Shown one piece after another: positions 236 to 35,668 of a stretch of 52,482 nucleotides of DNA. Under the pieces are notes generated by a model. That model was not told where the DNA came from. It saw only the letters and a program-made list of their open reading frames with translations, and did no database searches. Source of the DNA: Candidatus Zixiibacteriota bacterium (GTDB lineage Bacteria > RBG-13-66-14 > B26-G2 > WVWN01); the NCBI GenBank assembly GCA_030613505.1, contig JAUWLW010000019.1, positions 1 through 52,482 of the forward strand. Reading direction: 5' to 3'. A program made the position numbers and the translations under genes. Position 1 is the first letter of the stretch. Every line of letters starts with the position of its first letter.

Positions 236-844
236 TTATTGGTACAGCGCCTTTATCCTTCCCAGACTTGTCGGCGCCACCGCGCCGTAGTATCCGGCCA
301 CTAGCCGCAACATGAGGTTGTTGGGAGCGACGGTCCTCGACCACACGCCGTCACAATTAAGCCATGTGTGTTTCCCGTTGCCGGAGTCGTTGTCGTCGAA
401 GCAGAAGGGGTCGCACTCGGGCCAATCGAAGAACTGCTCCTGGCCGACCAAAAATTCGCGCTTATCTCTGGGCGGCCACGCCACGGGGAATTCGTACCAT
501 CCGGAATTCCCGTCGCCCTCCGGGATAACCAACTTCGGCTGCCCGTTTTCCGGCCACAATATTTCGCCCGGCACGCTGGCGCTGAAGTCGAAAATCGCTA
601 TCCGGAAGCCGTCGAATTTGCCGTTGGCCTGGTCCTGGCTGCAATATATTCGTAAAGACTTTACGAAGAACTCTTGCATTCAATCGAAGGCCGAAACTTC
701 GAAATCGTTCGCGCACCAGGTATCGAACCCCTTGGCGTAGCCCAACTGGAAGCCGAACGTCCCGGTATCCCACTTGAGCTCGAATTCCTGACCGTAGGCC
801 GCCGCGGCCACAACGAAGCAGACGAGCAACACCTTTTTGTACAT
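236..844 (-). CDS. Secreted protein with C-terminal tag, interrupted by an in-frame TGA
   Basis: The ATG at 844-842 follows a strong AGGAGGTGG site and opens a clear signal peptide (M-Y-K-K then a hydrophobic run ending A-Y-G-Q). Translation stays open for 54 codons to a TGA at 682-680, then continues in the same frame for 147 residues to a true stop at 236. Both halves share good coding character, and the product ends in the tag P-T-S-L-G-R-I-K-A-L-Y-Q found on nine other proteins here. No enzyme family is recognised. The TGA may be a nonsense mutation, a sequence error or a recoded codon; a perfect hairpin lies just after it (649-667). Neighbouring genes stop with TGA, so a general code change is unlikely. 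An ATG directly after the TGA could restart translation but would lack the signal peptide. Confidence 0.6.
649..667 (-). other. Perfect hairpin just downstream of the in-frame TGA
   Basis: An 8-base inverted repeat (TTCGTAAA / TTTACGAA) with a 3-base loop starting with G begins 12 nt after the TGA at 682-680 in the reading direction. Position and loop size fall in the range known for bacterial selenocysteine insertion elements. The stem is AT-rich and codes for ordinary residues (F-V-K-S-L-R-I), so chance or a simple mRNA fold is equally possible. Confidence 0.35.
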
Positions 845-869
845 CTTCTCCACCTCCTTTTCGCGTCCT

Positions 870-897
870 ACCTTAACATTCGCGCCAAAATAGTCAA
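870..897 (-). promoter_or_regulatory. Possible promoter of the interrupted tagged gene
   Basis: TTGACT at 897-892 and TAAGGT at 875-870 are separated by 16 nt and lie about 26 nt upstream of the start codon. The -10 box is weak. The upstream region to about 985 is strongly AT-rich. Confidence 0.35.
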
Positions 898-1032
898 GAA
901 AAAAATATTGCACTATTATTATTTATCATATCAATTATGTTTAGAAACTTCCGCAGTTTTCGATATATTTTTATTTAATTAGGGCTCAAGAAAAACGGCC
1001 GCCGGCGCCGTTCGGAGGCGTGGCGTTTACGA

Positions 1033-1062
1033 TTGAAAACGGCGCCCGCCGTTTGGTATAAT
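1033..1062 (+). promoter_or_regulatory. Promoter giving a probably leaderless mRNA
   Basis: TTGAAA at 1033-1038, an 18-nt spacer and a perfect TATAAT at 1057-1062. Only 7 nt separate the -10 box from the GTG at 1070, so transcription should start at or next to the start codon. There is no room for a ribosome binding site. Confidence 0.7.
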
Positions 1063-1069
1063 CGGCCGC

Positions 1070-2125
1070 GTGGCGTGGCGCCTGGAGGAAATCGACGACG
1101 CGGGCCGGTGGGACGAATTCGTCCTCGCCCGGGCGGAGTACTCGATAACGCACAGCTTCGCCTGGGGCGAGCTGAAGGGCGCGTTCGGCTGGCGGCCGCA
1201 CCGCTTTATTTTACTGGAGGACGGCCGCGCGCGGGCCGGCGCGCAAATACTGAGCCGGCCTATCCCGGTCGTCGGCGGCGAGCTGTGGTACGCGCCGCGC
1301 GGCTTCCTCGTCGACTACGGCGACGGCACCGCGCTGGGCGAGCTGACGGCGGCGCTGCTCGAGCCGGCCCGGAAACGGGGCGCCGTCGTCCTCAAGATAG
1401 AACCGATGGCTCGCCTCGAGGCGGACTTGAGCAGGCTCGAGGCGCTGGGGTACGTGCGGCGCAGCCGCGGCGTCCAACCGCGGCGTACGCTCTACCTCGA
1501 GCTAACGCGCCGCGAGGACGAACTCCTCGCCGGCATGGACCGCCGAACGCGTTACAACGTTAAATTGGCAGGCCGCAAGGGCGTCATCGTGCGGGTCGGC
1601 AAAGAACCAGCGGACCTTCACGTTTTCTACGAGGTCCTCGAGGCCACGATCGAACGCAAGCACTTCCTCGTTCACAACCTGCCCTACTACGAGAAGGTGC
1701 TCGAGCTCTTCGGCCCCGCGAGCGCCGTATTGATCGCCGAATACGACGGCGAGCCACTGGCGGCGGCGTTCGTCCTCGGCTTCGGCAAGTACGCCCACTA
1801 CGCCCACGCCGCGTCGTCGTCGACGCGCCGCGAGCTCAAGGCCACGAACAAGGTCGCGTGGGAGGCGATTCGCTGGGCCAAAGGCGCCGGTTACCAAATC
1901 TTCGACTTCTGGGGTATCCCCCGCGAGCCGTCGCCGCGCAACCCGCTATACGGCGTCTACACGTTCAAGAAAGGCTTCGGCGGCGAGACGGTGGCGTTTG
2001 CGCCGCCGTACGACCTGCCGTTAAAACCAGTCCGCTACCGCCTTCTGAATGCCGCGCTCGCGTTCCAGGCCGCGTGGCGCAACGTGCGCGCGCGCGGGAC
2101 GTTCCGGGACCCGATGGGCAATTAA
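1070..2125 (+). CDS. FemAB/FemX-family aminoacyl ligase (GNAT fold)
   Basis: The 351-residue protein matches the FemAB group, which adds amino acids from aminoacyl-tRNA to peptidoglycan precursors or makes related amide bonds with a doubled GNAT fold. Supporting features are the T-H-S-F-A-W-G-E-L-K stretch near residue 27, a middle segment with basic residues (M-D-R-R-T-R-Y-N-V-K), and the C-terminal G-Y-Q-I-F-D-F-W-G-I-P and Y-T-F-K-K-G-F-G-G motifs typical of the family. The GTG start is fixed by the promoter immediately upstream. It heads a plus-strand run of envelope genes, with mgsA 21 nt downstream. The cell-wall role is a family inference; the substrate is unknown. Confidence 0.85.
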   Translation: MAWRLEEIDDAGRWDEFVLARAEYSITHSFAWGELKGAFGWRPHRFILLEDGRARAGAQILSRPIPVVGGELWYAPRGFLVDYGDGTALGELTAALLEPARKRGAVVLKIEPMARLEADLSRLEALGYVRRSRGVQPRRTLYLELTRREDELLAGMDRRTRYNVKLAGRKGVIVRVGKEPADLHVFYEVLEATIERKHFLVHNLPYYEKVLELFGPASAVLIAEYDGEPLAAAFVLGFGKYAHYAHAASSSTRRELKATNKVAWEAIRWAKGAGYQIFDFWGIPREPSPRNPLYGVYTFKKGFGGETVAFAPPYDLPLKPVRYRLLNAALAFQAAWRNVRARGTFRDPMGN

Positions 2126-2146
2126 TTTTTATACACGGAGGCCGAA

Positions 2147-2560
2147 TTGAAAAAGAAAATCGCCTTAGTCGCACACGACGGCCGCAAGCAGGACCTGCTG
2201 GAATGGGTGAAGTTCAACGTCGGGACGCTTCGCGAGCACGAGCTCTACGCTACCGGGACCACCGGCCAAGTCATCGCCGAGGAGACGGGCCTCGACGTCC
2301 GGCGCTTCCGCTCGGGCCCGCTGGGCGGCGACATGCAGCTCGGCGCCGCCATCGCCGAAGATAAGCTCGACATCCTCGTCTTCTTCTGGGACCCGATGAC
2401 GCCCCACCCCCACGACGTCGACGTGAAGGCATTACTCCGCATCTCGGTCCTCTACAATATACCGACCGCCTGTAACCGTTCTACCGCGGACTTCGTAATC
2501 TCGTCGCCGTTGTTGAAAGAGGATTACGTACGAACGAGCAGATACGTCGATTTACAATAG
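2147..2560 (+). CDS. mgsA: Methylglyoxal synthase
   Basis: Converts dihydroxyacetone phosphate to methylglyoxal and phosphate, a bypass of lower glycolysis. The 137-residue length is usual for the family. Hallmarks are V-A-H-D-G-R-K near residue 8, the phosphate loop T-G-T-T-G (36-40), G-P-L-G-G-D (57-62, with the catalytic Asp at 62), and D-P-M-T-P-H-P-H-D-V-D starting at 82. The start is a TTG preceded by a good GGAGG site. It sits between a FemAB-like ligase and an envelope lipoprotein, which gives no functional link. Confidence 0.95.
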   Translation: MKKKIALVAHDGRKQDLLEWVKFNVGTLREHELYATGTTGQVIAEETGLDVRRFRSGPLGGDMQLGAAIAEDKLDILVFFWDPMTPHPHDVDVKALLRISVLYNIPTACNRSTADFVISSPLLKEDYVRTSRYVDLQ

Positions 2561-2601
2561 AACGTCGCGTAGGACGTAACCCAAAACCGCGGGGTATTTT
2601 T

Positions 2602-3474
2602 ATGAAAAGATATATCGTTATACTATGTATACCGCTGCTCGTCGCGGCCGTCGCGGGTTGCGGTAAAAAGGAGAAAAAGGCCGAGCCGGTTCCGCCGGCG
2701 ACGACGGTCGAAAAGGCCGGCGAAAAGGCCTCGCCCGTGCCCGAAACGGCCCGCGTGACCGCCGGACCCTTGAACTTGCGCGATAAACCGAACCTCGACG
2801 GCGCCGTAATCGGGAGGCTGAGCGAAGGAGAGAAGGTCCTCGTCCACGGCAAGAGCGACGCCGCCGAGACCATCGACGGCAAGGCGGCGTACTGGTACGA
2901 CGTCGAGACCGTCGACAAGAAGCGCGGCTGGGCCTTCGGCGCGTACCTGGACGTGGCGGCGGAGGAAGCACCCTCGACGGGTGAAAGCGCGCCCACGGCC
3001 GAAGCGGCCGCGGACGCCCCGCTCGCCGCCATCAACGTCACCGCCGTAGCCGACGTCCCGGCGTGGAAGGCCGGCGATTATTTCGAACGCGGGAAAGAGC
3101 TGGCCGGAGCGAAAGAGTACGGCGAGGCGTTGTTTTACTACAAGGCCGCGACGGAGCGCTCACCCCAGACCGGCCCATACTGGTTCGATTTCGGCCTCGC
3201 GCTCCAGGAAGTGGGCCGCCACATCGAAGCCTCGACGGCGTACGAGCGCGCCGTCGTCCTTATGCCGGACGACTTCTGGGCCCACAACAACCTCGGCCTG
3301 GCCTGCATCCGCGCCCGGCGCCCCCGCCGCGCCGTAGAGGTCCTGGAGAAAGCGCTGACGCTCCAGCCCAAGGGGCCTATGGACCCGGCGGCCGCCAAGG
3401 ACATCGCCCGTAGGAACCTGGCCACGGCGTACGAGCTGAACGGCCAACCGGAGAAGGCCGCGGCCTTACGCTAA
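2602..3474 (+). CDS. Lipoprotein with SH3-like and TPR domains
   Basis: A lipoprotein signal (hydrophobic run, then V-A-G-C) is followed by a Lys/Glu-rich linker. A bacterial SH3-like domain spans about residues 50-115 (L-N-L-R-D-K-P pattern and a late G-W-A-F-G). Tetratricopeptide repeats cover about 155-285 (paired helices with Y-F-E-R-G, W-F-D-F-G, W-A-H-N-N-L-G). Family knowledge suggests an envelope scaffold that may bind peptidoglycan through the SH3 part, which fits the M23 peptidase encoded next. The start ATG at 2602 has only a weak upstream GGGG. The exact partner is unknown. Confidence 0.8.
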   Translation: MKRYIVILCIPLLVAAVAGCGKKEKKAEPVPPATTVEKAGEKASPVPETARVTAGPLNLRDKPNLDGAVIGRLSEGEKVLVHGKSDAAETIDGKAAYWYDVETVDKKRGWAFGAYLDVAAEEAPSTGESAPTAEAAADAPLAAINVTAVADVPAWKAGDYFERGKELAGAKEYGEALFYYKAATERSPQTGPYWFDFGLALQEVGRHIEASTAYERAVVLMPDDFWAHNNLGLACIRARRPRRAVEVLEKALTLQPKGPMDPAAAKDIARRNLATAYELNGQPEKAAALR

Positions 3475-3532
3475 CGTCCCCGGAGATAACGCCGGCTTTG
3501 ACTCAAACACCGATTTGGTTTGGAAGTCGAAT

Positions 3533-4945: not shown

Positions 4946-5607
4946 TGGTAGAAAAGTTGGCGTACGACCCCGCGGCCGAAGCGCCGCGGCTCCTAAAGGA
5001 ATTGGCGCCGTACAACGTCCACAAGATGAAGCTGGCCGTGCCGGCCGCGGCCTTGCTCGTCGTCGACATGCAGAACGCCTTCATCCATCCTGACGGCTCG
5101 ATCTACTTGCCCGCCGGCGCGGCGATCGCGGACGCCGTCGCCGCGGTGGCCAACGCCTTCCGCGCCGCGGGCCGCCCCGTCTTCTTCACCCGACACGCCG
5201 AGGACCCGGCGGGCGGCAACGCCGGCATGATGGCCTTTTGGTGGGAGGACTCGTCGCCCAAGGAGGGTACATGGGAGGCCGCGATCTTCGAGGGGCTCGC
5301 GCCCCGGCCGGGCGACGTCGTAATTCCCAAAATCAGGTACAACGCGTTCGTCGCCACCGACCTCGAGCTCAGGCTGCGCGAGGCAGGCGTAAAGGACCTG
5401 GCGATAACAGGCGTAATGACCAACCTATGCTGCGAGAGCACCGCGCGCGACGCGTTCATGCGCGACTTCCGCGTCTTCTTCGCCGCCGACGGCACCGCGG
5501 CGCCGTCGCTCGAGTTTCACAGGGGTTCGCTTCTCAACCTGGCGTACGGCTTCGCGTACGTCCTCACGTGCGACGAGCTCGTCGCTATGGTTAAGGGTAA
5601 AAAATAA
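4945..5607 (+). CDS. Isochorismatase-family cysteine hydrolase
   Basis: The 220-residue protein shows the isochorismatase-like catalytic triad: Asp in L-L-V-V-D-M-Q-N (D41), Lys in I-P-K-I-R-Y (K129) and Cys in G-V-M-T-N-L-C (C162). The family includes nicotinamidases, N-carbamoylsarcosine amidases and ureidoacrylate hydrolases; nothing here decides the substrate. The ATG overlaps the stop of the M23 gene (TGATG) and has GGAGG upstream, so the two are probably translationally coupled. It ends the plus-strand run. Confidence 0.88.
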   Translation: MVEKLAYDPAAEAPRLLKELAPYNVHKMKLAVPAAALLVVDMQNAFIHPDGSIYLPAGAAIADAVAAVANAFRAAGRPVFFTRHAEDPAGGNAGMMAFWWEDSSPKEGTWEAAIFEGLAPRPGDVVIPKIRYNAFVATDLELRLREAGVKDLAITGVMTNLCCESTARDAFMRDFRVFFAADGTAAPSLEFHRGSLLNLAYGFAYVLTCDELVAMVKGKK

Positions 5608-5624: not shown

Positions 5625-5644
5625 TCTACTAAACCAGGCCGCAA

Positions 5645-6926: not shown

Positions 6927-6938
6927 CCGCTAGTCGGC

Positions 6939-9937: not shown

Positions 9938-10738
9938 ATGCGTAGAATAATAATCGTTATGCTTGTGTCCGCGCCGTTTTTCCCCGCGTTCGTATTCGGC
10001 ACTTACCCCGGCAGCGTAGTATCGTCTTTCTACGCGGGAAGCATAGAAGCGTACTGGCCTTTTGGCGTAACGTACGGGGGGGGATACGTTTGGGTAATTT
10101 ACGCGCACGATGTAGTAACTAAGAGGTCCCCTACTACGGGCTCCATCGTCGCTTCGTTCCACCTCGAGTCGTGGGGTCGGCAATTAGCGTGGGACGGTAA
10201 TAGAAAATATTTATACGATATAAATTGGCGCGACCGGGTAAATTGGTCCGACCCCAAAACCGGCTCGAGGATAGGTTCCTTCCCTAACCCGGGTACCGGG
10301 GTCTTATACGGCATAGATTACTACGAAGGCCACCCATCAAACCCTATATGGTTAGGTCAAAGGTTACCGCCTTTAGCTTGGAACCTTACTACGACGGGGT
10401 CGGTGGTAGCTTCTTACGACCTTGGTTCTTGGCGGTACTTACCATCTGCTCTAGCTTACGCCGATACGCCGCTAGGCGAATATATATTTTTCGGAATGAA
10501 CTCCGCACCGGCGTATATCTTCACAGTCAAACCCAACACGTTTTCTATAATCTCTTCCTTCGTAGCACCGGTCGGCAATTGCGGCATAAGCGATCTGAGC
10601 TGGGACGGCAGTTACCTATGGGTCCTCGAGAACGGGCCGCCGCCGATAGAACCGGGGTGGGTTTATCGTATTGTGGCCTATACGGCGCCCGCTATCTCAC
10701 CCGCGTCTTTGGGCAAAATAAAGGCGCTTTACCGTTAA
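9938..10738 (+). CDS. Secreted propeller-like protein with C-terminal tag
   Basis: The 266-residue protein has a signal peptide (M-R-R-I-I-I-V-M-L-V then A-F-V-F-G). It contains repeated units around G-S-[IV]-V-A-S-[FY] about every 45 residues, suggesting a beta-propeller. It ends P-A-S-L-G-K-I-K-A-L-Y-R at the stop codon. No enzymatic motif is visible. The ATG has AGGAAAACGAG upstream. It sits between two copies of a promoter-leader repeat, so it may be an insertion or the product of a local duplication. Relatives with the same repeats and tag lie at 17606-20976 and 22180-22929. Confidence 0.75.
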   Translation: MRRIIIVMLVSAPFFPAFVFGTYPGSVVSSFYAGSIEAYWPFGVTYGGGYVWVIYAHDVVTKRSPTTGSIVASFHLESWGRQLAWDGNRKYLYDINWRDRVNWSDPKTGSRIGSFPNPGTGVLYGIDYYEGHPSNPIWLGQRLPPLAWNLTTTGSVVASYDLGSWRYLPSALAYADTPLGEYIFFGMNSAPAYIFTVKPNTFSIISSFVAPVGNCGISDLSWDGSYLWVLENGPPPIEPGWVYRIVAYTAPAISPASLGKIKALYR

Positions 10739-13996: not shown

Positions 13997-15646
13997 ATGT
14001 TTAAGCGCAACCTGATAATAACCTTAACCGCCGTTGCGGCCGCCGCGACGGGAACTTTCGCCACCGAGTTCTGGACCGCGGAGGAGCTGGCCCGGCCGCC
14101 CGGGCCGCCGCTCGAGCCGCGTCTGGGCTACGACGCCCGCGCCGAAAAATACGACGCCGAGGAGGTATTCGGGAAGGCGTGCGCCTTCATCGAGTACTGG
14201 CAGGTCAAAGACCCCAACGACCCCAACTACGGCGGCATCCGCGAGGGCGAAGATTTGCCGCACATCGTCCAGACCGACAACACGTCGGAGTCGGTTTGGG
14301 TATGGTCGCGGTGGCGCCAGCTCACCGGCAGCCGCGAGTACGACGACGCCGTCGCGCGTTCCTGGGTCTATATAAATAAATACCCGGCGTGGGAAGAGGA
14401 AGGCTGGGAAAACCCGGCCTCGAAATACTACCGCATATACAATTGCGGCTGGGGTATGCGCGCCGAGATGATGTACCGACAGACGACCGGCGACAACTCG
14501 CTTAAAGACTACGGCCTTACATGCGCGCGCTTCGTGGCCGACAACCTCATCGACATTAAGAACATGTCGTACTTAAACAACTACCTCTGCACGGCGTGGG
14601 CCGTCGGCAACCTCTACGAATACGCGGAGGACGTCGGCGACGCCGGCCTGAAGGCCAAAGCGCTGTCGCTGGCGTCGGAGGTTAAATCGCTGGCGGAGGA
14701 AGCGCCGGGTTGGCGGATCGGATATTACGCCTGGGCCATGTCCGGCGGCGTTACGGTATGGGGCCTCCACAACTCTTATTTCAAGGAATACCCCAACGAC
14801 GAAAAGCTCTGGATGACAGAATACGGCCCCTACCTCCAAACGCTGGTCAAACCGGGCGCCGGGACTTGGGACAATGCCTGGAACGCGTGGTACATGTTCG
14901 GCCACCACAGCTGCTATCACGCGACGGGCGACGAGTCATACTGGCTCAAATTCGACAACGTCGCGGCCAACCTCGTCGCCCAGGACACGGACGACGACGG
15001 CGGCATCCCTCCCAGTCAAGCCGGCACCGAAAAAGGCGACCATACCTGGGTCACGTCGTACCTGTGCATGATGGGTATGGACCGCATCATCCGCGACTTG
15101 AGCGTAAAGAACTTCGTCGCGGTCGCCGAGCCGGGGACGATCGTCTTAAAGTGGGACCCCGCGTACGAGACGCACGCCCTGGCTTACAATCTCTACCGCG
15201 AGACCGAAGGCCGGCCCGGGCGCGTAAAAATTACCGACACGCCGCTAACGGGCGAGCCGCCGTACTCTTTCGTCGACGCGGACGTCGTCCCGGCGACGAC
15301 GTACCGCTACTGGCTCGAGGCCCTGAGCCCGACCGACCACGTCCGTATCCACGGGCCGATAGAGCGCAAGGCGGGCGCGCTCAAGGCCACCTTCGCGCTG
15401 GGCCAGAACTACCCCAACCCGGCGACGTACGGCCGCACCGCGGTTCCGTTCGCGCTGGCGCGCGCCGGCAAGACGTCCTTCCGCGTCTACGACCTCGCCG
15501 GCCGCGAGGTATACCGGACGCAGCGTGATTATAGCGCCGGCAAGCACGTGCTCGATCTCGCGTTCGACTTCGCCCCCGGCGTCTACGTGTACAACCTCCG
15601 GGCGGGCGGCGACGAGGCGGCTAAAAGGATGGTAATAACGAAGTAG
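13997..15646 (+). CDS. Secreted protein with alpha-barrel-like domain, Fn3 and type IX sorting domain
   Basis: The 549 residues comprise a signal peptide (about 1-22), a region rich in W, Y and paired helices (about 55-370) resembling (alpha/alpha)6 glycosidase-type barrels, an Fn3-like segment (about 372-455), and a C-terminal domain from residue 466 (F-A-L-G-Q-N-Y-P-N-P, then F-R-V-Y-D-L-A-G-R-E-V and G-V-Y-V-Y-N-L-R). The last part is the type A sorting domain recognised by the type IX secretion system. The barrel's substrate is not evident and catalytic residues cannot be assigned. It has a GGGAGGA ribosome binding site and is followed by a terminator. Confidence 0.78.
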   Translation: MFKRNLIITLTAVAAAATGTFATEFWTAEELARPPGPPLEPRLGYDARAEKYDAEEVFGKACAFIEYWQVKDPNDPNYGGIREGEDLPHIVQTDNTSESVWVWSRWRQLTGSREYDDAVARSWVYINKYPAWEEEGWENPASKYYRIYNCGWGMRAEMMYRQTTGDNSLKDYGLTCARFVADNLIDIKNMSYLNNYLCTAWAVGNLYEYAEDVGDAGLKAKALSLASEVKSLAEEAPGWRIGYYAWAMSGGVTVWGLHNSYFKEYPNDEKLWMTEYGPYLQTLVKPGAGTWDNAWNAWYMFGHHSCYHATGDESYWLKFDNVAANLVAQDTDDDGGIPPSQAGTEKGDHTWVTSYLCMMGMDRIIRDLSVKNFVAVAEPGTIVLKWDPAYETHALAYNLYRETEGRPGRVKITDTPLTGEPPYSFVDADVVPATTYRYWLEALSPTDHVRIHGPIERKAGALKATFALGQNYPNPATYGRTAVPFALARAGKTSFRVYDLAGREVYRTQRDYSAGKHVLDLAFDFAPGVYVYNLRAGGDEAAKRMVITK

Positions 15647-17605: not shown

Positions 17606-18439
17606 TCACCTAAATAAGGCTTTTATCCTCCCGACCGACGCGGGCGCGACGGCGACGCCGTTGCCGAGAGACACTTGGTAGACGCAATCGCGGTCCCACG
17701 GCGGCATACGGTCCGTCAAATGCGCCCAGAGGGTAGTATTACACTCAGCGGGGTAGCCGGGGCCGCAAACAGCCGTGTCGTGTCTGAAGTACGGCGGCCT
17801 GGACACGGCGAACGTGCGCACCAGCGAACCGCCGCCCGAATATACTTTAACGGCGCCGTCTGCGGCGACGATAACGAATTCGCCGGACCGCCCCGCGAAG
17901 CGGTCGCTCGCCGCTAAAGATTTCCCCCACCCTACGGCGAAAGAACTTACCAAACTTCCGGTCACTGTGAAGCGGAATACGGTCCCACCCTCGACCAATA
18001 CGTACTTATATGCGCCGCCCGGGATATAAGCGTAGCCGTACATATTGGCGAGGGGTGACCACGAGCTTAAGACGGAACCCGTGGCTATATTAATGTCCCG
18101 GATCGAGGTCTCGCCGTAAATAATGGCGAAATAACCGGCCCCTAACGTACTGTGGTCTGCGTCGCCGTATAGGGGGTACGGCCCCAGTAAGAGACGGGCC
18201 CAGCCGACGGAGGATCCGGAAGGTGTATACTTCCGAAGTTGAATAATCCGGTTATTTGTATAATCGCCGACTACGGTATATACGTAACTGGCGTCGCGGT
18301 AAATACCTTGGACGTACATACGATAACCGGGGCGCGCGTCGAAGGAGCTGATGACGTACCCGGGGCCGGCGTACGTAACCGTGTTACTTCCCCACGCGAT
18401 AATTAAACCGGTGAATAATGCGACAGCTTTAATTTTAAT
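17606..18439 (-). CDS. Tagged secreted propeller-like protein with a probable ATT start
   Basis: The protein has a signal peptide (I-K-I-K-A-V-A-L-F-T-G-L-I-I then T-V-T-Y-A), repeats of the V-I-S-S-F and G-S-L-V-[SR]-[ST]-F type, and ends P-A-S-V-G-R-I-K-A-L-F-R. No ATG, GTG or TTG occurs between the upstream gene's stop (18475) and the signal peptide. An AGAGGA site sits 6 nt before an ATT at 18439-18437, giving 277 residues, close to its paralogues (258-272). ATT is a rare start codon and often limits translation; a mutated ATG is the other reading. Last of four tandem paralogues. Confidence 0.72.
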   Translation of the reverse strand: MKIKAVALFTGLIIAWGSNTVTYAGPGYVISSFDARPGYRMYVQGIYRDASYVYTVVGDYTNNRIIQLRKYTPSGSSVGWARLLLGPYPLYGDADHSTLGAGYFAIIYGETSIRDINIATGSVLSSWSPLANMYGYAYIPGGAYKYVLVEGGTVFRFTVTGSLVSSFAVGWGKSLAASDRFAGRSGEFVIVAADGAVKVYSGGGSLVRTFAVSRPPYFRHDTAVCGPGYPAECNTTLWAHLTDRMPPWDRDCVYQVSLGNGVAVAPASVGRIKALFR

Positions 18440-18474
18440 AAGGATTCCTCTTAATTTACTAAAATAATCGCAGG

Positions 18475-19293
18475 TTAACGATAAAGCGCCTTTATCCTCC
18501 CCACCGACGCCGGCGCGACGGCGGTTGTATTGCCGAGGTCTATTTGGTACACCCAGCACCCCGACCAGCCCTCGTACCGCCAGTACGTCGTACCCCAACT
18601 CGCCGGGTAACCGGGGCCGCAGACGCATCCGCGGCCTATCACATCTCGCCCGTTAGGGCCTATCACATCCCGCCCGTTAGGGAAAGTACCGACCAAAGAC
18701 CCGTCACCCGTATACACGCGCGCCGGCGTAGAATCGACGATGACGTAATCGCCCGGGCGGCCTTTATACCGGTCCGTCGCGGCGAGCGCCCCGCCCGTTT
18801 TAAAGGAGCTTACTACGCTCCAGGAAGCATCGTATTTAAATATGAATTCCGAGGAGTCTTCCGAGGCGAAAGCGTACCTGGCTCCCGGTCGATAAGCGTA
18901 ACCCCAGATGTCGTATAGCCCCAGGTTTATCGACTCTACGCGATAACCTGTCGACAGATCAAAGGTGAATAAAAAATTGGCGTCCGTGGCGATCGTCACG
19001 TACCCGGCGCCCCGGCGGCTGTGGTCGGCGTCCGTAAGAGGCCAGTGGGCCCCGGGGGGACCGAGATGGAGAACGCCGACGTAACTCCCAGCCGGCGTAT
19101 ACTTCTTAAGGTAATAACTAGGTTGAGTCGAATAAAACGCGACGTAGACGTACGCGGCGTCCCGGTAAACGCCCCCGGCGTAATCGGGTCCGCTTGTCGC
19201 TCGGAAAGAGGATATTACGTCGCCCACGCCGGCCCAAACGGCCGCCGCAAGAACGCTCGTAGCCGCAATCAAGCGTATAACCACCCGCGTCAT
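18475..19293 (-). CDS. Tagged secreted propeller-like protein
   Basis: The 272-residue protein has a signal peptide (M-T-R-V-V-I-R-L-I-A-A-T-S-V-L, cleavage near A-V-W-A). Repeat units include V-I-S-S-F, a conserved Y-R-D-A-A-Y-V-Y and a D-A-D-H-S step, and it ends P-A-S-V-G-R-I-K-A-L-Y-R. A late C-x-C-G-P-G-Y-P segment is shared with the next paralogue. The ATG has GGGAGG upstream. A 24-bp tandem duplication near its 3' part repeats eight residues (18635-18682). Function unknown; the fold is inferred from repeat periodicity. Confidence 0.78.
   Translation of the reverse strand: MTRVVIRLIAATSVLAAAVWAGVGDVISSFRATSGPDYAGGVYRDAAYVYVAFYSTQPSYYLKKYTPAGSYVGVLHLGPPGAHWPLTDADHSRRGAGYVTIATDANFLFTFDLSTGYRVESINLGLYDIWGYAYRPGARYAFASEDSSEFIFKYDASWSVVSSFKTGGALAATDRYKGRPGDYVIVDSTPARVYTGDGSLVGTFPNGRDVIGPNGRDVIGRGCVCGPGYPASWGTTYWRYEGWSGCWVYQIDLGNTTAVAPASVGRIKALYR
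18635..18682 (-). repeat. 24-bp tandem duplication inside a tagged gene
   Basis: Two 24-bp units (18635-18658 and 18659-18682) differ at one base. They duplicate eight residues (N-G-R-D-V-I-G-P / N-G-R-D-V-I-G-R) that are single or absent in the paralogues. In-frame and recent. Confidence 0.85.
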
Positions 19294-19341: not shown

Positions 19342-20118
19342 TTACCGATACAGCGCCCTCAACCTGCCTAAAGACGTCGGCGCTACGGCCACGTTCGTAT
19401 TGCCGAGGTCTATTTGGTAGGCGTAGAAATCGGTCCCCCTGCGCAGGTTGCACCAGTACGTCGTGCCGTGGGTGGAGGGCGCGCCCGGGCCGCAGATGCA
19501 GCCGTACGTCACCGCCGGTAGAACGAAACTCGTCACCAGGGACCCCGTGCCGGTATAGACCATGGCGTAGAATGAGAGCCTCGAGCCCACGACGACGTAA
19601 TTACCGGCGCGGTTCCTAAAACGGCTCGTCGCAGCGATGGGCCCGGCGGAATAACTCACCGTAAAGCTACTCACCAGGCTCCCGGCCTTCGTATAACGGC
19701 GGACGTCCGCGCCGCTGTGGACGAAATAATAGGCGCTGCCCGGGAAGTACGCGAACCCGGTAGTGCTCGGCGGCGCCGCGTACGACCGTATCAACGAGCC
19801 GTTGGAGGTCCGGTATTCGAAGATGCGGTTGCCGCCGCCCAAGACCGTCATGCGGCCCGCGCCGGCGACGCAGTGGTCGGCGTCGGCCGCGGCCGTCAGG
19901 CCGCTTAGCGCCACGGTCCCGACCAGCGAACCGCCGACGGTGTACCGACGTAGCGTATTCGTGCCGACGACGCAATATACGTAACTGCCGTCGCGATATG
20001 CGTCGCGGGCGCTCGGCCACGGGAAAGAACTGATCACGTCGCCTACGGCGCCCAAGGCCGGCGCCGCGGCGATTAACGTCGCGGCCGCTGCGACTAAGCT
20101 CAATACCTTACATCCCAT
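19342..20118 (-). CDS. Tagged secreted propeller-like protein
   Basis: The 258-residue product starts at an ATG with AGGAGGGG upstream (20118-20116); an in-frame ATG nine codons earlier lies before the ribosome binding site and is rejected. The signal peptide is followed by V-I-S-S-F, the paired Y-R-D-G-S-Y-V-Y and D-A-D-H-C steps, and G-S-L-V-[TS]-S-F repeats. The end is P-T-S-L-G-R-L-R-A-L-Y-R, the most divergent tag in the array. C-I-C-G-P-G-A-P resembles the neighbour's cysteine segment. Function unknown. Confidence 0.78.
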   Translation of the reverse strand: MGCKVLSLVAAAATLIAAAPALGAVGDVISSFPWPSARDAYRDGSYVYCVVGTNTLRRYTVGGSLVGTVALSGLTAAADADHCVAGAGRMTVLGGGNRIFEYRTSNGSLIRSYAAPPSTTGFAYFPGSAYYFVHSGADVRRYTKAGSLVSSFTVSYSAGPIAATSRFRNRAGNYVVVGSRLSFYAMVYTGTGSLVTSFVLPAVTYGCICGPGAPSTHGTTYWCNLRRGTDFYAYQIDLGNTNVAVAPTSLGRLRALYR

Positions 20119-20166
20119 CGCCGCCACCCCTCCTTGCTTATGCATATACAGCCGCCCGTCGGTACT

Positions 20167-20976
20167 TTAGCGATAGAGCGCCTTCACCTTTCCGAGCGAA
20201 GCCGGCGCCACCGCCGGCGCCGTGGCCTCGACGTCGACCTGGTACGCCCAACGGTCGGTGCCTATTCGCTGGACGCACCAGTACGCCCGTTGATACTTCT
20301 TCGGGTTGGCCCGACCCACGATCGACGCGTACGTACCGGTACCCGGCACTACAAACGAATCCACCAGCGAGCCGCCGCCGGTGTAAACGTACGAATAGCC
20401 GCCCACGCCGGACCGGCCTATGATCACGTATTCGCCGTTCTTGCCGTCGTATACGGGCGTAGCGGCCAGGCCGCCGATGTACCCACCGACGTAGAACTTG
20501 TTTACCAATACGTCGTTGGTGGTGTAACGGAAGACCATCTCGTCGCGGGCGACGAAGTACTTCGACGAGCCCGGTATATAGGCGTACGCCGTGGTATCGG
20601 AGGGCAACGGCTTCGCCTTCACGAATTCCGCGTTCTTCTTGTACGTCAAGAGCATCTTCTTGCCGAAATCAAAGACGTCGACGTAGCCACTGCCCAGCGT
20701 GCTGTGGTCGGCGTCGCGCGGCGCTTGGGCCCGCGACAACGTCGCTGAACGCACTACCGAACCGGCCGGCGTGTACGTCGTCAGATAATCCGGGCCGGCG
20801 GAATACAGGATGCCGTAGACGTACGTCCAATCGCGATATATCCCGGTCGCCTTCGGCGTCTCGGCGCCCGTCATCTTGAACGAACTGATTACGGACCCCA
20901 CGGCGGCTTGCGCCGCAAACGCCGCCGCTAAAAAGGCCGCGGCAACGCAAATAATTATCATAGACCGCGCCTTCAT
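20167..20976 (-). CDS. Tagged secreted propeller-like protein
   Basis: The 269-residue product starts at the ATG at 20976-20974 behind GAGGAG; the ATG 15 codons earlier lacks a site. It has a signal peptide (M-K-A-R-S-M-I-I-I-C-V then A-A-Q-A), a V-I-S-S-F start of repeats, Y-R-D-W-T-Y-V-Y, D-A-D-H-S, and ends P-A-S-L-G-K-V-K-A-L-Y-R. It is the first gene of four tandem paralogues separated by 35-48 nt. Function unknown; the order suggests expansion by tandem duplication. Confidence 0.78.
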   Translation of the reverse strand: MKARSMIIICVAAAFLAAAFAAQAAVGSVISSFKMTGAETPKATGIYRDWTYVYGILYSAGPDYLTTYTPAGSVVRSATLSRAQAPRDADHSTLGSGYVDVFDFGKKMLLTYKKNAEFVKAKPLPSDTTAYAYIPGSSKYFVARDEMVFRYTTNDVLVNKFYVGGYIGGLAATPVYDGKNGEYVIIGRSGVGGYSYVYTGGGSLVDSFVVPGTGTYASIVGRANPKKYQRAYWCVQRIGTDRWAYQVDVEATAPAVAPASLGKVKALYR

Positions 20977-21071
20977 AACAGACTCCTCATGTCGCACGCG
21001 CGCCAACGTTCGCCACTTCATTTAATTAAATTATAACCCCTTCCGCGCGGGCCGTCAAGGCACATAACTGA

Positions 21072-21123: not shown

Positions 21124-22092
21124 CTACTTAAACAACGCCTTAATCCGGCCTACGGACGACGGAACGACCGCGGGAAGCGACTCGCGGAAGTATTGGATGC
21201 GGTGGTTATTATAGTCGGCGACGTATACCCGGGCACCGTTCGCGGTGACGGCAACTGCAGAAGGCCAATTAAACTGGCCGTTACCGCTTCCCAGCGACCC
21301 CCATTTACCGAGGAACGACCCGACCGGGGTAAAATATTGGACCCGATGGTTTCTCCTGTCAGCGACGTAAACGATACCGCCCGGGCCGTAGGTCACGCCC
21401 GACGGGTCGTAGAATTGGCCGTCGCCGCTCCCTCGCGAGCCCCACATGCCGAGGAACGAACCGCTGGGCGTGAAGTATTGTACGCGGTCGTTGTCGCTAT
21501 CCGCTACGTAAACGTTACCGTTTGGCGCGACGGCGATTTGAAGGGGAAACATGAACTGGCCGCTGCCCCGTCCCCACGAGCCCCACTTACCGAGAAAAGA
21601 CCCGGCCGGCGTGAAGTATTGAACGCGGTGATTGCCGACGTCGGTCACGTACCAATTCCCGTTGCGGGCAAACGCTATCCCGTAAGGCCCGCGGAACTGG
21701 CCGTTACCAGAACCTACCGAGCCGTGGAAGCCCAGGTAAGACCCCGTTGAAGTGAAGTATTGGATGCGGTGGTTACGGTAATCCGTTACGTAGACGTTGC
21801 CGCTCGAGGCAAACGCCAAGCCCCGCGCAAGGCCGAATTGCCCCGCGCCCGAGCCCTCCGTTCCCCATTTACCGAGGAATGAGCCGCTCGAGGTGAAGTA
21901 TTGTACGCGGTGGTTGTAGGCGTCCGCCACGTATACGTTGCCGTTGGTTGCTATAGCTACATCTTCCGGGCGGTAGAATTGGCCGTTACCTGTACCTTCG
22001 GAGCCCCATTGGCCTTCGTAGACCCAAACACCCGAGGCCGGGGCCGCGGCAACCACAAACGCGCCAACTATGTATAAGGCGTAACGTTTCAT
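21124..22092 (-). CDS. Tagged secreted NHL-repeat beta-propeller
   Basis: The 322-residue protein has a signal peptide (M-K-R-Y-A-L-Y-I-V-G-A-F) and about six NHL units, each with G-N-V-Y-V-A-D then N-H-R-[VI]-Q-Y-F-T, a G-S-F-L-G-K-W-G turn and a G-x-G-[NS]-G-Q-F turn. NHL propellers bind proteins or glycans; no active site is expected. It ends P-S-S-V-G-R-I-K-A-L-F-K right after the last blade, so the tag is extra to the fold. An AGAGGGG site precedes the ATG. Close relatives lie at 33421 and 34700. Confidence 0.88.
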   Translation of the reverse strand: MKRYALYIVGAFVVAAAPASGVWVYEGQWGSEGTGNGQFYRPEDVAIATNGNVYVADAYNHRVQYFTSSGSFLGKWGTEGSGAGQFGLARGLAFASSGNVYVTDYRNHRIQYFTSTGSYLGFHGSVGSGNGQFRGPYGIAFARNGNWYVTDVGNHRVQYFTPAGSFLGKWGSWGRGSGQFMFPLQIAVAPNGNVYVADSDNDRVQYFTPSGSFLGMWGSRGSGDGQFYDPSGVTYGPGGIVYVADRRNHRVQYFTPVGSFLGKWGSLGSGNGQFNWPSAVAVTANGARVYVADYNNHRIQYFRESLPAVVPSSVGRIKALFK

Positions 22093-22179: not shown

Positions 22180-22929
22180 TTACTTAAACAACCCTTTGAC
22201 CCGGCCGAAGGACGCCGGGTTTATGTTCTCCCCGCCGGAATAACATAGTTGGAATATATAGTTAGTCGCGGCGTCAACAACCCACACAAAAGTATAAGGG
22301 GGTTCGTGGTCGTTATCGCACGTTTTACGGTCCGCCCATACGCCAGCGGGAGCGCCTAACGGAAAACCGCCGAAACCAATAAAGTATACTCTATGCGTCG
22401 CCGCGTCGCCTATAACACCGTCGTTACTAGAATAAGCCTCTATGGCGGTTAAACGATTCCCCGGCCCGCGGAAAGAACTTACGACCGAACCGGTGGTTGT
22501 GACCTCGACCGCAAGGTTCTCTTCCGGGATGGCGACGTATTTTCGGTAGATCCCTCCCCCGCCGCTTAAATCGGCCGGGTGCGCCTTGGGACACTGGAAC
22601 GAGGATATAACCGAACCCGTTGTCGTCAATTGGTAAATGTAGCTATTATTGTAATTAGAAACGGTAATAATATCCTGTCCCCAACTACTCAATCCCCAGG
22701 CGCCCCTTGGAATAGCTAGATTTATATATTCTGAAGGCTCGCCCAATTTGTATATACGGGGCGGGGAACCGTCGCAAAGTATAGAATAACCGCCAGGGGT
22801 ATGCAAATTTATACCCCGGGCATTGGGCGCGGGCGCGGGGTAAGACGCTGCAATAGACCACCCGCTGGCGCCTGCCGTCGGCGCTAACGAAACAAACGCC
22901 GCGAGTAAAAATACTGTCGACACTCTCAT
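22180..22929 (-). CDS. Tagged secreted propeller-like protein
   Basis: The 249-residue protein has a signal peptide (M-R-V-S-T-V-F-L-L-A-A-F), repeats with T-T-[TG]-x-x-S-V-[IV]-S-S-F, and the end P-A-S-F-G-R-V-K-G-L-F-K. That tail shows the same anchor positions (P, S, G, R/K, K, L, F) with Phe and Gly replacements. No known family beyond repeat similarity to the array at 17606-20976. It is separated from the NHL gene by 87 nt. Confidence 0.72.
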   Translation of the reverse strand: MRVSTVFLLAAFVSLAPTAGASGWSIAASYPAPAPNARGINLHTPGGYSILCDGSPPRIYKLGEPSEYINLAIPRGAWGLSSWGQDIITVSNYNNSYIYQLTTTGSVISSFQCPKAHPADLSGGGGIYRKYVAIPEENLAVEVTTTGSVVSSFRGPGNRLTAIEAYSSNDGVIGDAATHRVYFIGFGGFPLGAPAGVWADRKTCDNDHEPPYTFVWVVDAATNYIFQLCYSGGENINPASFGRVKGLFK

Positions 22930-30932: not shown

Positions 30933-30935
30933 AGG

Positions 30936-32027: not shown

Positions 32028-33331
32028 CGGCCACCCTCCGCCGCGGAGCCGGCCTCTTCCTCCCGGGCCCAACGCGGCCGTCGCTTTTTCAAAATGGTCC
32101 GGATAAAAGGCCACCGGCGGACGTCGAGGAACCGGAGGGCCGCGAACGATACCCTACCGCGGACCGCGCGCGTCAAAAGCCACGCGCCCAACGCCGTGAG
32201 CAGGATGTTGGGGAGCCACATCGCCAGGAAGGGCGGCATCATGCCGCGGTCGCCGAAGGCCTCGCCGGCGAGGAGCATAATGTAATACAAGAGGAAAAAG
32301 CCGATGGAGAAGCTGAAGCCGGCTCCCTTGCCGCCGCGGCGGATGATTGCCCCCATCGGCGCGCCCACCAGGACCAACGCCGCGCAGGCGAACGGTATGG
32401 CGGTCTTCTTGTATATCTCGACCAGGTACTCGTTCTTGCGTCGCTCCAGCAACTCTATTTGCTGCAGCTGGTATTTCTCCTCGATGAACGTCGCCGTCCC
32501 CTCCGCCCGCGTCATAGCTATACCCTCGGCCAGCTTGTTTACCGCGGCGCGCATTTCGGCAGTCGTCATCTCGCGGTCGCCCTTGGCGGCGTGGGCGGTG
32601 CGGACCAGCGCCGATTCGAACTCCAGGTTGACGACCTGCTTGTCGAAACGTAGGCGCCGGTAGGTGTCGGGGGCGTCGGGCGAAACCTCGTGCATCTCGC
32701 CGTCGTAGAGTTCCAGTACGACGAGGCCGCGCACGTTGCGGGAGGCGACGCGGCCCCGGTCGGCGACGATCGTGCTTTTAAGGCGGCCGCCCTCCATCTG
32801 GAATATGGTTACGTTGCGCATCTCGCCCGTCCGGTCGTCCATCTTCTCGATGTACAGCTCGTAGCCGGGAAAGTCCTGGATGAAGACGCGCTCCTTGAGC
32901 TCGAGGTCGGGACGCTTCATGCCGATGGAGAGCATGAGGTCCTTGAAGCGCAGGTTGGAGGCGGGGACGACGCGGTCGATGAAGAAGAACATCCCGACGG
33001 CCATGATAAGCCCCACGACCAGCACCGGCCAGATAAGCCGGTAGAGGCTCACGCCGACGCTCTTGAGGGCCGTTATTTCGTTGTCGGAGGACAGGCGGCC
33101 GAAGGCCATCAGCGACGCGACCATCACCGCCATCGGGACCGTCATAGCGAGGAGGGAAGGCATGAAGTAGGAAAAAAGCTCCCCCACCGTCAATACGTCG
33201 ATGCCCTTCGAGATGATGAGTTCCATCATCTTGAAGATGCGCGCGAGTAGCAAGACCAGCGTCGCCGTAAAGACGGCGAAGACGAACGGCCCGACGTGCT
33301 CGACGATTATGTATCGGTGCAGGATCTTCAT
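32024..33331 (-). CDS. lptF: LPS export ABC transporter permease LptF
   Basis: Partner permease of LptG. The 435-residue protein begins M-K-I-L-H-R-Y-I and has N-terminal helices with S-Y-F-M-P-S-L-L-A-M-T-V-P and S-S-D-N-E-I-T-A-L-K-S-V-G (the coupling region to the LptB ATPase, not encoded here). A long periplasmic domain follows, then C-terminal helices (V-L-V-G-A-P-M-G). A C-terminal extension of about 40 basic residues is unusual. The ATG is 21 nt after a good -10 box. Confidence 0.9.
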   Translation of the reverse strand: MKILHRYIIVEHVGPFVFAVFTATLVLLLARIFKMMELIISKGIDVLTVGELFSYFMPSLLAMTVPMAVMVASLMAFGRLSSDNEITALKSVGVSLYRLIWPVLVVGLIMAVGMFFFIDRVVPASNLRFKDLMLSIGMKRPDLELKERVFIQDFPGYELYIEKMDDRTGEMRNVTIFQMEGGRLKSTIVADRGRVASRNVRGLVVLELYDGEMHEVSPDAPDTYRRLRFDKQVVNLEFESALVRTAHAAKGDREMTTAEMRAAVNKLAEGIAMTRAEGTATFIEEKYQLQQIELLERRKNEYLVEIYKKTAIPFACAALVLVGAPMGAIIRRGGKGAGFSFSIGFFLLYYIMLLAGEAFGDRGMMPPFLAMWLPNILLTALGAWLLTRAVRGRVSFAALRFLDVRRWPFIRTILKKRRPRWAREEEAGSAAEGGR

Positions 33332-33351
33332 AGCAGGCGCCTAATCGGCGA

Positions 33352-33380
33352 AGTATACAATAAAGCCGCGGCCCTGTAAA
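33352..33380 (-). promoter_or_regulatory. Promoter of the lptF operon
   Basis: TTTACA at 33380-33375, a 17-nt spacer and TATACT at 33357-33352, giving a leader of about 14 nt before the lptF ATG. Confidence 0.7.
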
Positions 33381-33420
33381 CGTCTAACGCCGCGGCCTAA
33401 AGTTACACTCTATTACAGAG

Positions 33421-34389
33421 TTATTCAAACAACGCCTTGATTTTTCCGAGCGAAACCGGCATTACGGCGCGGTTTTGCTCTGCGAAGTATTGGACGCGGT
33501 GGTTTCCGCAATCCGCCACGTAGACGCGGCTACTACCACTGACGGTTACGCCGAACGGTTGGTTAAATTCGCCGTTTCCGGAACCATGCAAACCCCACAT
33601 GCCGACCCAATAACCTTCCCACGTGAAGTATTGCACCCGGTTATTGTGGCGGTCGGCGACGAAGACGTTCCTATCGGGCGCTACCGCTATCTCCGAAGGG
33701 CCGCTAAACTGGGCGTTGTAACGCCCGTGGGTTCCCCAAAAACGTAAAAAGGACCCGGCGAGGGTAAAATACTGGACGCGGTCGTTGCGGAAATCCGTTA
33801 CGTAAACGATTTCTTCGGTGGAAATGTCTACGCCTAGGGGGCCGTCGAATTGGCCGTAACCCTTGCCGGTGGAACCCCATTTGCCTATCAACGAGCCGTC
33901 CGGTGTAAAGTATTGGATCCGATCGTTGCCCGAATCGGCGACGTAAACGTTGCCGTTCGGCGCGACGGCGACGCCCATAGGATTATAGAAATCGCCGTCG
34001 CCGGAACCCAGCTTACCCCACGTGCGCACGAAAGACCCGTTCGTGGTAAAGCACTGAACGCGGTGGTTGTATAAATCCGTGACGTAGATATATCCGCCGG
34101 ACGCGAAAGCTAAGCAAACAGGCCGGTCGAACTGGCCTTTGCCGGAACCCTGGCTGCCCCACTTTCCCAAGTAAGAACCCGTCGGCGTGAAGTATTGAAC
34201 GCGATGGTTCAGCTGGTCCGCTACGTAAACGTTCCCGTTATCCGATATTTCGACGCCGCAAGGGTAGTAGAACTCGCCATCCCCCGAACCTCGTGCGCCC
34301 CACTGTCCCTCGTAAACGTACGTAGGCGGCGTTCCAAAAGCGGCAACGACCATTACGACCGTAATTAGGCCAAACGTTGTAACCTTCAT
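33421..34389 (-). CDS. Tagged secreted NHL-repeat beta-propeller
   Basis: The 322-residue protein from the ATG at 34389 has a signal peptide (M-K-V-T-T-F-G-L-I-T-V-V) and about six NHL units with G-N-V-Y-V-A-D, N-H-R-V-Q-Y-F-T and W-G-x-x-G-S-G turns. It ends P-V-S-L-G-K-I-K-A-L-F-E, the only tag here with an acidic last residue. A GGGAGG site precedes a GTG-ATG pair; the ATG is preferred. It lies directly beside a remnant of another gene (34429-34632). Confidence 0.87.
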   Translation of the reverse strand: MKVTTFGLITVVMVVAAFGTPPTYVYEGQWGARGSGDGEFYYPCGVEISDNGNVYVADQLNHRVQYFTPTGSYLGKWGSQGSGKGQFDRPVCLAFASGGYIYVTDLYNHRVQCFTTNGSFVRTWGKLGSGDGDFYNPMGVAVAPNGNVYVADSGNDRIQYFTPDGSLIGKWGSTGKGYGQFDGPLGVDISTEEIVYVTDFRNDRVQYFTLAGSFLRFWGTHGRYNAQFSGPSEIAVAPDRNVFVADRHNNRVQYFTWEGYWVGMWGLHGSGNGEFNQPFGVTVSGSSRVYVADCGNHRVQYFAEQNRAVMPVSLGKIKALFE

Positions 34390-34428
34390 CACCGATCCTC
34401 CCGATCATTTAAAACCTACGGCGAATAA

Positions 34429-34632
34429 CGTACGGGGCCCGGCATCTCAGCGAACGCCGGCGCCGACGTCGCCTTCGACGACGGCCGCGCGTACGTTGAC
34501 GTCTCCACGGGCAAGATGTACCCGCTGCTCGACGCCGAGAAGTACGACGCCGCCGACCTTTCGCTGCACCCGGCGAGGGCGGGCGTCTCTTTGTTTGCTT
34601 TCACGTTCGGGTCCTGTGTCGCGAACCCTTAA
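34429..34632 (+). pseudogene. C-terminal remnant of a lost secreted-protein gene
   Basis: This lies in the gene-free gap 34393-34699. From an in-frame TAA at 34426-34428 the plus strand stays open for 67 codons to a TAA at 34630, with strong G/C bias at third positions as in real genes here. The peptide includes A-F-D-D-G-R-A-Y-V-D-V and L-L-D-A-E-K-Y-D-A-A-D-L-S. It has no start or ribosome binding site, but a good terminator follows at 34657. It looks like the end of a gene whose 5' part was lost or replaced by the adjacent tagged NHL gene. The original family is not recognised. Confidence 0.55.
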
Positions 34633-34656
34633 CCTCCTCTCACCCTCCTGAACAAG

Positions 34657-34681
34657 GGCCGTCCGGAGGGGCGGCCTTTTT
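34657..34681 (+). terminator. Rho-independent terminator after the remnant
   Basis: An 8-bp stem (one G-T pair) with a GGAG loop and five T at 34677-34681. It supports a former plus-strand gene ending at 34632. Confidence 0.8.
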
Positions 34682-34699
34682 ATATGCTCGCGTCGACGA

Positions 34700-35668
34700 T
34701 TAGCGGAACAAAGCCTTAACCCTCCCCAGCGAGGCCGGCGCCACGGCCGGGTTCCCATATTTGAAGTACTGGACGCGGGCGTTGCGGAGGTCCGCGACGT
34801 AGACGCGCGCGTCCGACGGGAACGCCGCGGCGACCGGGTCCGTAAACTCGCCCTCGCCCTCGCCCCGCCGGCCCCACTCTCCCACGAAGCTCCCGGTCGG
34901 CGTGAAGAACTGCATGCGGTGGCGGTCGGTGACGAAGACGTACGGCCGCGGCGATACCGCTATCCCTATCGGCAGCGTGAACTGGCCGGCCGCGGTCCCG
35001 TACGAGCCCCACTTGCCGAGGAAGCTGCCGGCCGCGGTGAAGTACTGGACGCGGCGGTTGGTGCTGTCCGTGACGTAGACGCGGCCGTTGGGGGCGACCG
35101 CGACACCGCGCGGGAAGAGGAACTTGCCGTCGCCGGTCCCGGCGGAGCCCCACTTAGCCAGGAAGCTTCCCGCCGCGGTAAACCGCTGGACGCGGTTGTT
35201 GCCGGCGTCGGCGACGTAGACGTTGCCGTTCGGCGCGACGGCCAAGCCCTCGGGATACTTGAACCGGCCGTTGGCGGTCCCCTCCGCGCCCCACTTGCCG
35301 AGGAAGCTCCCGCTCGAGGTGAAGTATTGGACGCGGTGGTTGAACGAGTCGACGACGTAGAGGTTACCGCTCGAGGCGACGGCGACGCCCACCGGGTTCT
35401 GGAACTCGCCGTCGCCGGTCCCGGCCGTGCCCCAAGCGCCGCGGTAGCTACCCGTCGCCGCGAAGTACTGGACGCGGTTGTTGCCGGAGTCGACGACGTA
35501 CACGACGCCGCCGGCGCCGACGGCCACGCCGGTGGGGAATATGAACTGGCCTTGGCCGGAGCCTTCTTTGCCCCACTGCCCCTCGTATACGTACCGGGGC
35601 GGCGACGCCGCGGCGGCCAGGGGAACGAATACCACAAGAACGGCCAGTACGATTGCGCTTTTTGCCAT
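34700..35668 (-). CDS. Tagged secreted NHL-repeat beta-propeller
   Basis: The 322-residue protein has a signal peptide (M-A-K-S-A-I-V-L-A-V-L-V), six NHL-type units (G-N-V-Y-V-A-D, N-N-R-V-Q-[YR]-F, G-S-F-L-G-K-W-G), and the end P-A-S-L-G-R-V-K-A-L-F-R. Third positions are more GC-rich than in the NHL genes at 21124 and 33421, so the copies are not very recent duplicates of one another. It has a GAGGAAAAT site and a consensus promoter (35711-35740), and is divergent from the SprA-like gene. Confidence 0.88.
   Translation of the reverse strand: MAKSAIVLAVLVVFVPLAAAASPPRYVYEGQWGKEGSGQGQFIFPTGVAVGAGGVVYVVDSGNNRVQYFAATGSYRGAWGTAGTGDGEFQNPVGVAVASSGNLYVVDSFNHRVQYFTSSGSFLGKWGAEGTANGRFKYPEGLAVAPNGNVYVADAGNNRVQRFTAAGSFLAKWGSAGTGDGKFLFPRGVAVAPNGRVYVTDSTNRRVQYFTAAGSFLGKWGSYGTAAGQFTLPIGIAVSPRPYVFVTDRHRMQFFTPTGSFVGEWGRRGEGEGEFTDPVAAAFPSDARVYVADLRNARVQYFKYGNPAVAPASLGRVKALFR

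Follow-up and report, generated by a model that had tools for sequence, protein, structure and literature searches.

A short position-locked C-terminal tag on exported proteins of Candidatus Coatesbacteria and other uncultured phyla, a likely sorting signal

The window, by which we mean the whole stretch of DNA analysed (52,482 nucleotides, contig JAUWLW010000019.1), comes from a genome of 2.86 Mb in 100 contigs that belongs to the group Candidatus Coatesbacteria. Ten of the proteins encoded in it finish at the stop codon with variants of one short peptide, which we call the tag. An earlier note on this DNA had listed ten such proteins, and all ten were recovered (Table 1). The note had also credited each of them with a signal peptide. 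Eight of these signal peptides are ordinary, and reservations apply to the other two. In the protein ending at 236, the signal peptide lies upstream of an in-frame TGA, with the start at 844, and the length of 202 residues previously given for this protein is reached only by reading through that codon. The TGA may indicate a pseudogene, an error, or recoding; paralogues of the gene have neither Cys nor Trp at the corresponding column. The protein ending at 17606 has no ATG, GTG, or TTG directly ahead of its signal-like segment.

Table 1. Tagged proteins and type IX-related genes of the window
Feature	Position	Strand	Remarks
Exported protein of the ~225-aa family	236..844	minus	C-terminal tag PTSLGRIKALYQ; in-frame TGA at 680-682
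Exported V-I-S-S-F propeller-type protein	9938..10738	plus	Tag PASLGKIKALYR
V-I-S-S-F propeller-type protein	17606..18628	minus	Tag PASVGRIKALFR; start codon uncertain
V-I-S-S-F propeller-type protein	18475..19293	minus	Tag PASVGRIKALYR
V-I-S-S-F propeller-type protein	19342..20145	minus	Tag PTSLGRLRALYR; AlphaFold2 model is a beta-propeller
V-I-S-S-F propeller-type protein	20167..21021	minus	Tag PASLGKVKALYR
Exported NHL propeller	21124..22092	minus	Tag PSSVGRIKALFK
V-I-S-S-F propeller-type protein	22180..22929	minus	Tag PASFGRVKGLFK
Exported NHL propeller	33421..34392	minus	Tag PVSLGKIKALFE
Exported NHL propeller	34700..35668	minus	Tag PASLGRVKALFR
Exported protein with classical type IX C-terminal domain	13997..15646	plus	PF18962, residues 472-547
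Sov/SprA, type IX outer-membrane translocon	35811..41672	plus	1953-aa frame; TIGR04189, 202.6 bits (first part) and 116 bits (second part)
Two TolQ/ExbB-like and two TolR/ExbD-like genes, after SprA	41755..44261	plus	

The consensus of the tag is [ST]-[W/L/V/I/F]-G-x-[IV]-K-[AGS]-[LMI]-[YF]-x-COOH. A degenerate codon pattern covering the tail and the stop matched 150 times in the source genome and its reversed form not once; such reversed-pattern controls rule out a chance origin. All other statistics for this genome come from about 530 kb of stretches and from short loci. Among 104 distinct tags, the Gly is invariant and a Lys or Arg stands exactly four residues from the end in every case, as it does in nearly all tags of other genomes. 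Only the residue after the Gly and the last residue are free, and conservation starts about 7 residues before the core, as V-x-P in Coatesbacteria and as P-V-E in Eisenbacteria. Across 111 tags of the source genome, codon choice is free, with weak conservation at third positions, and just past the stop the information content falls to about 0.05 bit. We conclude from the codon variation and from the end of conservation at the stop that the tag is a peptide, and a DNA-level repeat or recombination site is thereby ruled out. Many of the copies sit in tandem paralogue clusters.

The tag is strongly linked to export, and intact tagged genes nearly always encode a signal peptide. Signal peptides, called by a simple hydropathy rule and not by SignalP, are present in 76 of the 90 tagged genes of the source genome, compared to 126 of 298 other genes (Fisher p=6e-13). 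The same holds for genomes of the phylum containing Eisenbacteria CSMAG_1489 (hereafter Eisenbacteria-type), with 33/35 tagged genes positive and 47/161 others (p=3e-13). Several exceptions are genes interrupted by TGA, or have visible signal peptides that the rule missed. The strict motif occurs internally only once among ~840 genes checked, possibly where a stop was lost. When membrane helices were sought (mean hydropathy of at least 1.6 over 17 residues), they were found in the first 45 residues of 91 of 97 tagged proteins and in the last 45 residues of none of 169.

Fold does not account for the tag. With the last 15 residues removed, tagged proteins of the source genome sort into seven or more groups that are independent in sequence: propellers, a ~210-aa family, a ~225-aa family, beta-helices, a cupredoxin, and two groups labelled jelly-roll-like by eye. 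Pfam searches across phyla also found starch-binding, pullulanase X25, plastocyanin, PKD, and NosD beta-helix domains on tagged proteins, and sugar-binding domains are likewise among the cargo. A restriction to one fold is thus ruled out, and the tail is not due to common descent of whole proteins, as the earlier note had argued. The argument had been built on three unrelated architectures in the window, and this part needs correction: the V-I-S-S-F family is predicted to be a beta-propeller with an NHL domain as its top PDB match, so that two of the three are propellers. Fold independence still holds, because tagged proteins with other folds occur in the rest of the genome and in other phyla. 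Overall, equal occurrence on cytoplasmic proteins, limitation to a single fold, and presence also in protein interiors were all looked for, and none was seen.

The AlphaFold2 model of the protein at 19342-20145, built from 19 sequences, has a mean predicted local distance difference test (pLDDT) score of 81.6, and most propeller blocks reach about 85-94. Tail residues 255-267 score <50, and residues 259-265 are drawn as a short helix. The tag is a free, unpacked tail in this model, which fits an exposed peptide that becomes ordered upon binding. Its Gly and Ala, four residues apart, and its aromatic or aliphatic residues on one face would suit a helix. The model of the ~225-aa family (mean pLDDT of 44) was too poor for use.

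Some of the cargo is familiar from other anchoring systems. Choice-of-anchor domains, as NCBI named them, are paired with differing C-terminal anchoring signals in different bacteria. Three adjoining Eisenbacteria-type proteins match choice_anch_V with 88-108 bits (cut-off of 42). In a 201-aa protein, the domain covers residues 14-175 (108 bits) with the tag behind it; between the domain and the stop lie ~25 residues, a slot that the tag fills. In other organisms, this space holds a known anchor signal. Other tagged proteins have choice_anch_X matches or weak choice_anch_J matches. NCBI choice-of-anchor families (e.g., NF041895) include tagged proteins, but the models describe the cargo domain and not the tag. 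The earlier note knew of no named family for the tag, and this is in agreement with our searches: the ten isolated tails gave no NCBIfam match at E up to 10 (filters can discard very short models), and a search of a paper collection for literal motif strings found no paper naming the motif.

The number of copies varies considerably among relatives, with 98-155 in the same genus, 14 in the same order, and 15 in another family of the class. In one family (f5), the first pattern had only 0-2 matches, but proteins with signal peptides carry a W-form (e.g., SWGEIKAAF, TSWGMIKALD, and TTWGAIKAVEF). Metagenome-assembled genomes (MAGs) of the Coatesbacteria group include bin961, bin3, and CSMAG_1259. 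The tag is not confined to this group. All 20 Eisenbacteria-type genomes have it, in 6-32 copies (control, 0) and in the form P-V-E-x-x-[TS]-W-G-x-I-K-[AG]-L-Y-R. A GTDB scan with a tight pattern found matches in Eisenbacteria, Latescibacterota, Fermentibacteraceae, Krumholzibacteriota, and Delongbacteria MAGs besides those of Coatesbacteria. In these groups other than Coatesbacteria, the general W-form is [ST]-W-G-x-[IV]-K-[AGS]-[LMI]-[YF]-x-COOH. Isolated matches in Gammaproteobacteria, Moraxellaceae, Clostridiales, and similar groups are mostly tiny frames and are treated as chance. Candidatus Zixiibacteriota is the label of one MAG, A-C077 (L104 and other WVWN01 records). Its tags and protein families are those of Coatesbacteria, and the tag coordinates listed for it match those of a genome of the same genus (G004). 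The label is probably wrong.

Among GTDB Bacteroidota, 65 of 296 genomes have a tag match, and 64 of these 65 have exactly one copy. Of 20 loci read (L234-L253), 17 have a clusterable tag gene, which encodes one orthologous exported protein of ~135 residues. The most conserved part of this protein is its end, T-W-G-S-I-K-A-x-F, in which T-W-G-S-I-K-A and F are invariant, while the bodies are 23-56% identical. Matches in Phocaeicola (G035) and in another genome of Bacteroidales (G036) do not have the T-W-G-S form and were not accepted as this carrier. The neighbouring genes (MatE, SpoIID, Maf, LPG synthase, and tRNA synthetase) are not informative, no type IX genes lie beside the carrier in the 4-kb stretches read, and the search for relatives in the PDB gave weak matches only (best E of 0.12).

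How does the tag compare to known C-terminal signals? The earlier note had likened it to PEP-CTERM and GlyGly-CTERM. The likeness is functional: these signals and MYXO-CTERM are also short common C-terminal ends on many otherwise unrelated exported proteins, and among the carriers of the tag are choice_anch_V and distant MXAN_6652-like proteins. The likeness is not structural, as each of the known signals has a membrane helix together with a signature and a basic end, whereas the tag has no helix. We exclude the membrane-anchored class because tagged proteins do not have a hydrophobic C-terminal segment (0/169). Type I secretion goes with the absence of a Sec signal peptide; tagged proteins have signal peptides and so do not fit this class.

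Type IX secretion is the better comparison, because the translocon is encoded in the window itself. Like the tag, the type IX domain (type A, PF18962 / TIGR04183, and types B and C) is C-terminal and occurs in many copies on diverse cargo with Sec signal peptides; Sov/SprA, PorV-family, and PorU-type proteins are encoded in the genome with the tag, and the last residues are basic and hydrophobic in both. Type A domains are Ig (immunoglobulin)-like beta-sandwiches of about 70-100 residues with motifs B, D (GxY), and E, and type B domains have 150-235 residues (PMC10202324, PMC12618676). In contrast to type A domains, the tag has about 10-13 residues, no motifs B, D, and E before its end, and no PF18962. 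Short type IX domains of Prevotella intermedia still span 40-55 residues in three strands and retain motifs B, D, and E; a shortened signal is still cleaved in that organism, and its PorV binding has been modelled (PMC11969387). The tag is unrelated to these domains in sequence and far shorter.

The source genome encodes 33 PF18962 domains, 3 Peptidase_C25 proteins, and 10 PorV-family proteins. No PF18962 domain was found among 43 tagged proteins scanned with Pfam or among the ten of the window; the classical ~75-residue domains are on other proteins, as expected of alternative signals. A PorU-type C25 peptidase adjoins a PorV-family gene on contig C8, and every Coatesbacteria genome has at least two C25 matches. 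PorV-family proteins were found in 23/23 genomes checked (5-18 each). There are ~10 paralogues per Coatesbacteria genome (in the source genome on contigs C95, C23, C80, C8, and C97), a number that suggests several specialised shuttles. Given that Flavobacterium uses specialised shuttles for different classes of type IX signals (PMC12618676), a dedicated PorV-family shuttle for the tag is plausible. Sov/SprA is present in 36 of 37 tag-bearing genomes checked, a set that left out the Bacteroidota with the single-copy carrier, and in 0/6 genomes with chance-like single matches.

The linkage to signal peptides, the independence of fold, and the near-absence inside proteins support the idea of the earlier note that the tag is a sorting, processing, or anchoring signal. 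We consider it very probable that the tag is a sorting or targeting signal of exported proteins. Its size, the absence of a fold or membrane anchor, the fixed distance to the end, and its distribution set it apart among C-terminal sorting tags. Tagged proteins would cross the inner membrane via their Sec signal peptides, and folding would follow in the periplasm. An envelope receptor could then bind the last ten residues of the flexible tail, which is predicted to be disordered when free, and send the proteins to the outer membrane or the cell surface. The most likely receptor would be a shuttle of the PorV family acting at the translocon, and the Sov/SprA of the window is the candidate exit channel. 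The tag may stand in, at a fraction of the length, for the ~75-100-residue type IX domain, perhaps as the equivalent of only its terminal "motif E." The data show the tag with its exact position, its conservation as a peptide, its linkage to signal peptides, its independence of fold, its breadth, and its co-occurrence with Sov/SprA; we infer receptor, route, final location, and any tail removal. Whether the tag is read via the type IX route seems evenly balanced to us, and we would give the explanation as a whole, a position-locked sorting tag for which a PorV-type shuttle of the type IX machinery is the probable reader, the same even chance of being correct. More tentatively, the tag could be a sorting code shared across a superphylum, in which a free ten-residue peptide with no fold or anchor, present on up to about 150 exported proteins per cell, is recognized by a receptor other than the classical type IX one, and which originated from a contact made by a single-copy exported protein of the Bacteroidota type that later became a general address.

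Several observations weigh against the type IX route. One tag-bearing genome (G053; 1.7 Mb and possibly incomplete) has no Sov/SprA match, and the matches in two others (G023 and G049) are weak. The co-occurrence with Sov/SprA is confounded by phylogeny, as all carriers belong to the Fibrobacterota-Chlorobiota-Bacteroidota (FCB) group and its neighbours. Type IX secretion is not sufficient for the presence of the tag, since most sampled GTDB Bacteroidota have no tag or exactly one. No clear motif is common to the tag and type IX domains (GxY, motif D, is absent), and the similarity of their last residues is no more than suggestive. The neighbours of SprA are not conserved, and no receptor is singled out. 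Finally, a specific protein-protein contact would account equally well for the single copy in Bacteroidota.

The tag could instead serve to dock or retain proteins at one shared envelope scaffold (an outer-membrane, peptidoglycan, or surface-layer receptor) that is unrelated to type IX, found on one protein in Bacteroidota and expanded in Coatesbacteria and Eisenbacteria. This would accord with the invariant tag on a single ~135-aa orthologue of otherwise divergent sequence in about a fifth of sampled Bacteroidota, away from type IX genes in the stretches read, and with the constraint on all but two positions at fixed spacing from a free end, as for a bound peptide. However, Sov/SprA is also present in every secure tag-bearing genome group tested, and known surface sorting signals have a similar range of cargo (starch-binding, cupredoxin, beta-helix, and choice-of-anchor). 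Overall, we regard this explanation as rather unlikely. It is improbable that the tag is primarily a processing signal, with cleavage just ahead of the tail or inside it by a protease or sortase-like C25 peptidase (PorU type), which would attach the new end to a surface molecule. C25 peptidases are encoded in the source genome and throughout Coatesbacteria, and the linker after the last strand, with conservation from ~7 residues before the core, could hold a cleavage site. Yet C25 copy number is out of step with tag number (family f5 has 2-5 C25 matches and few tags), and constraint extends over nearly every position as far as the penultimate residue, which a leader that is cut off would not require. 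Tail processing as a later step is compatible with a sorting tag. That the tag is a structural end cap or domain-shuffling remnant, spread with duplicated genes and aiding the folding of the preceding domain, is highly improbable despite the many tandem clusters, given the unrelated folds within the genome and across phyla, the unpacked tail in the propeller model, the fixed spacing to the stop, and the linkage to signal peptides.

As a sorting signal, the tag would assign hundreds to thousands of unannotated proteins of uncultured phyla (Coatesbacteria, Eisenbacteria-type, Latescibacterota, Fermentibacteria, and others) to the surface or to secretion, and the surface proteomes of these phyla could be predicted from it in a simple way. 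If type IX machinery reads it, the smallest known type IX signal shrinks from about 40 to about 10 residues, and the receptor could be approached in cultivable relatives through the single-copy Bacteroidota carrier. If not, a new export or attachment route is implied.

The TolQ/ExbB-like and TolR/ExbD-like genes that follow SprA were considered as a lead to an energising motor, and this was rejected. The link to SprA is doubtful because the gene order is not kept in the four relatives examined.

In-frame TGA codons also occur in other tagged genes. The ~210-aa exported family (L066 on contig C56, L053:1488-2006, and L061:4006-4488) has a TGA at one conserved column in 8 paralogues, mostly in the context G-C-TGA-G, and other members have different residues or a gap there. 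The source genome encodes a tRNA-Sec (C62:50539-50632; 66.7 bits). Based on the conserved column and this tRNA, these proteins look like undescribed selenoproteins. Quick folds gave no clear selenocysteine insertion sequence (SECIS) element. Tagged beta-helix proteins (two genes of L062, L068:18239, L138, and L159) share an in-frame TGA in NYMYWCPG-TGA-GGGSW, and in L138 (bin961) and L159, which come from other genomes, the downstream frame has the same start.

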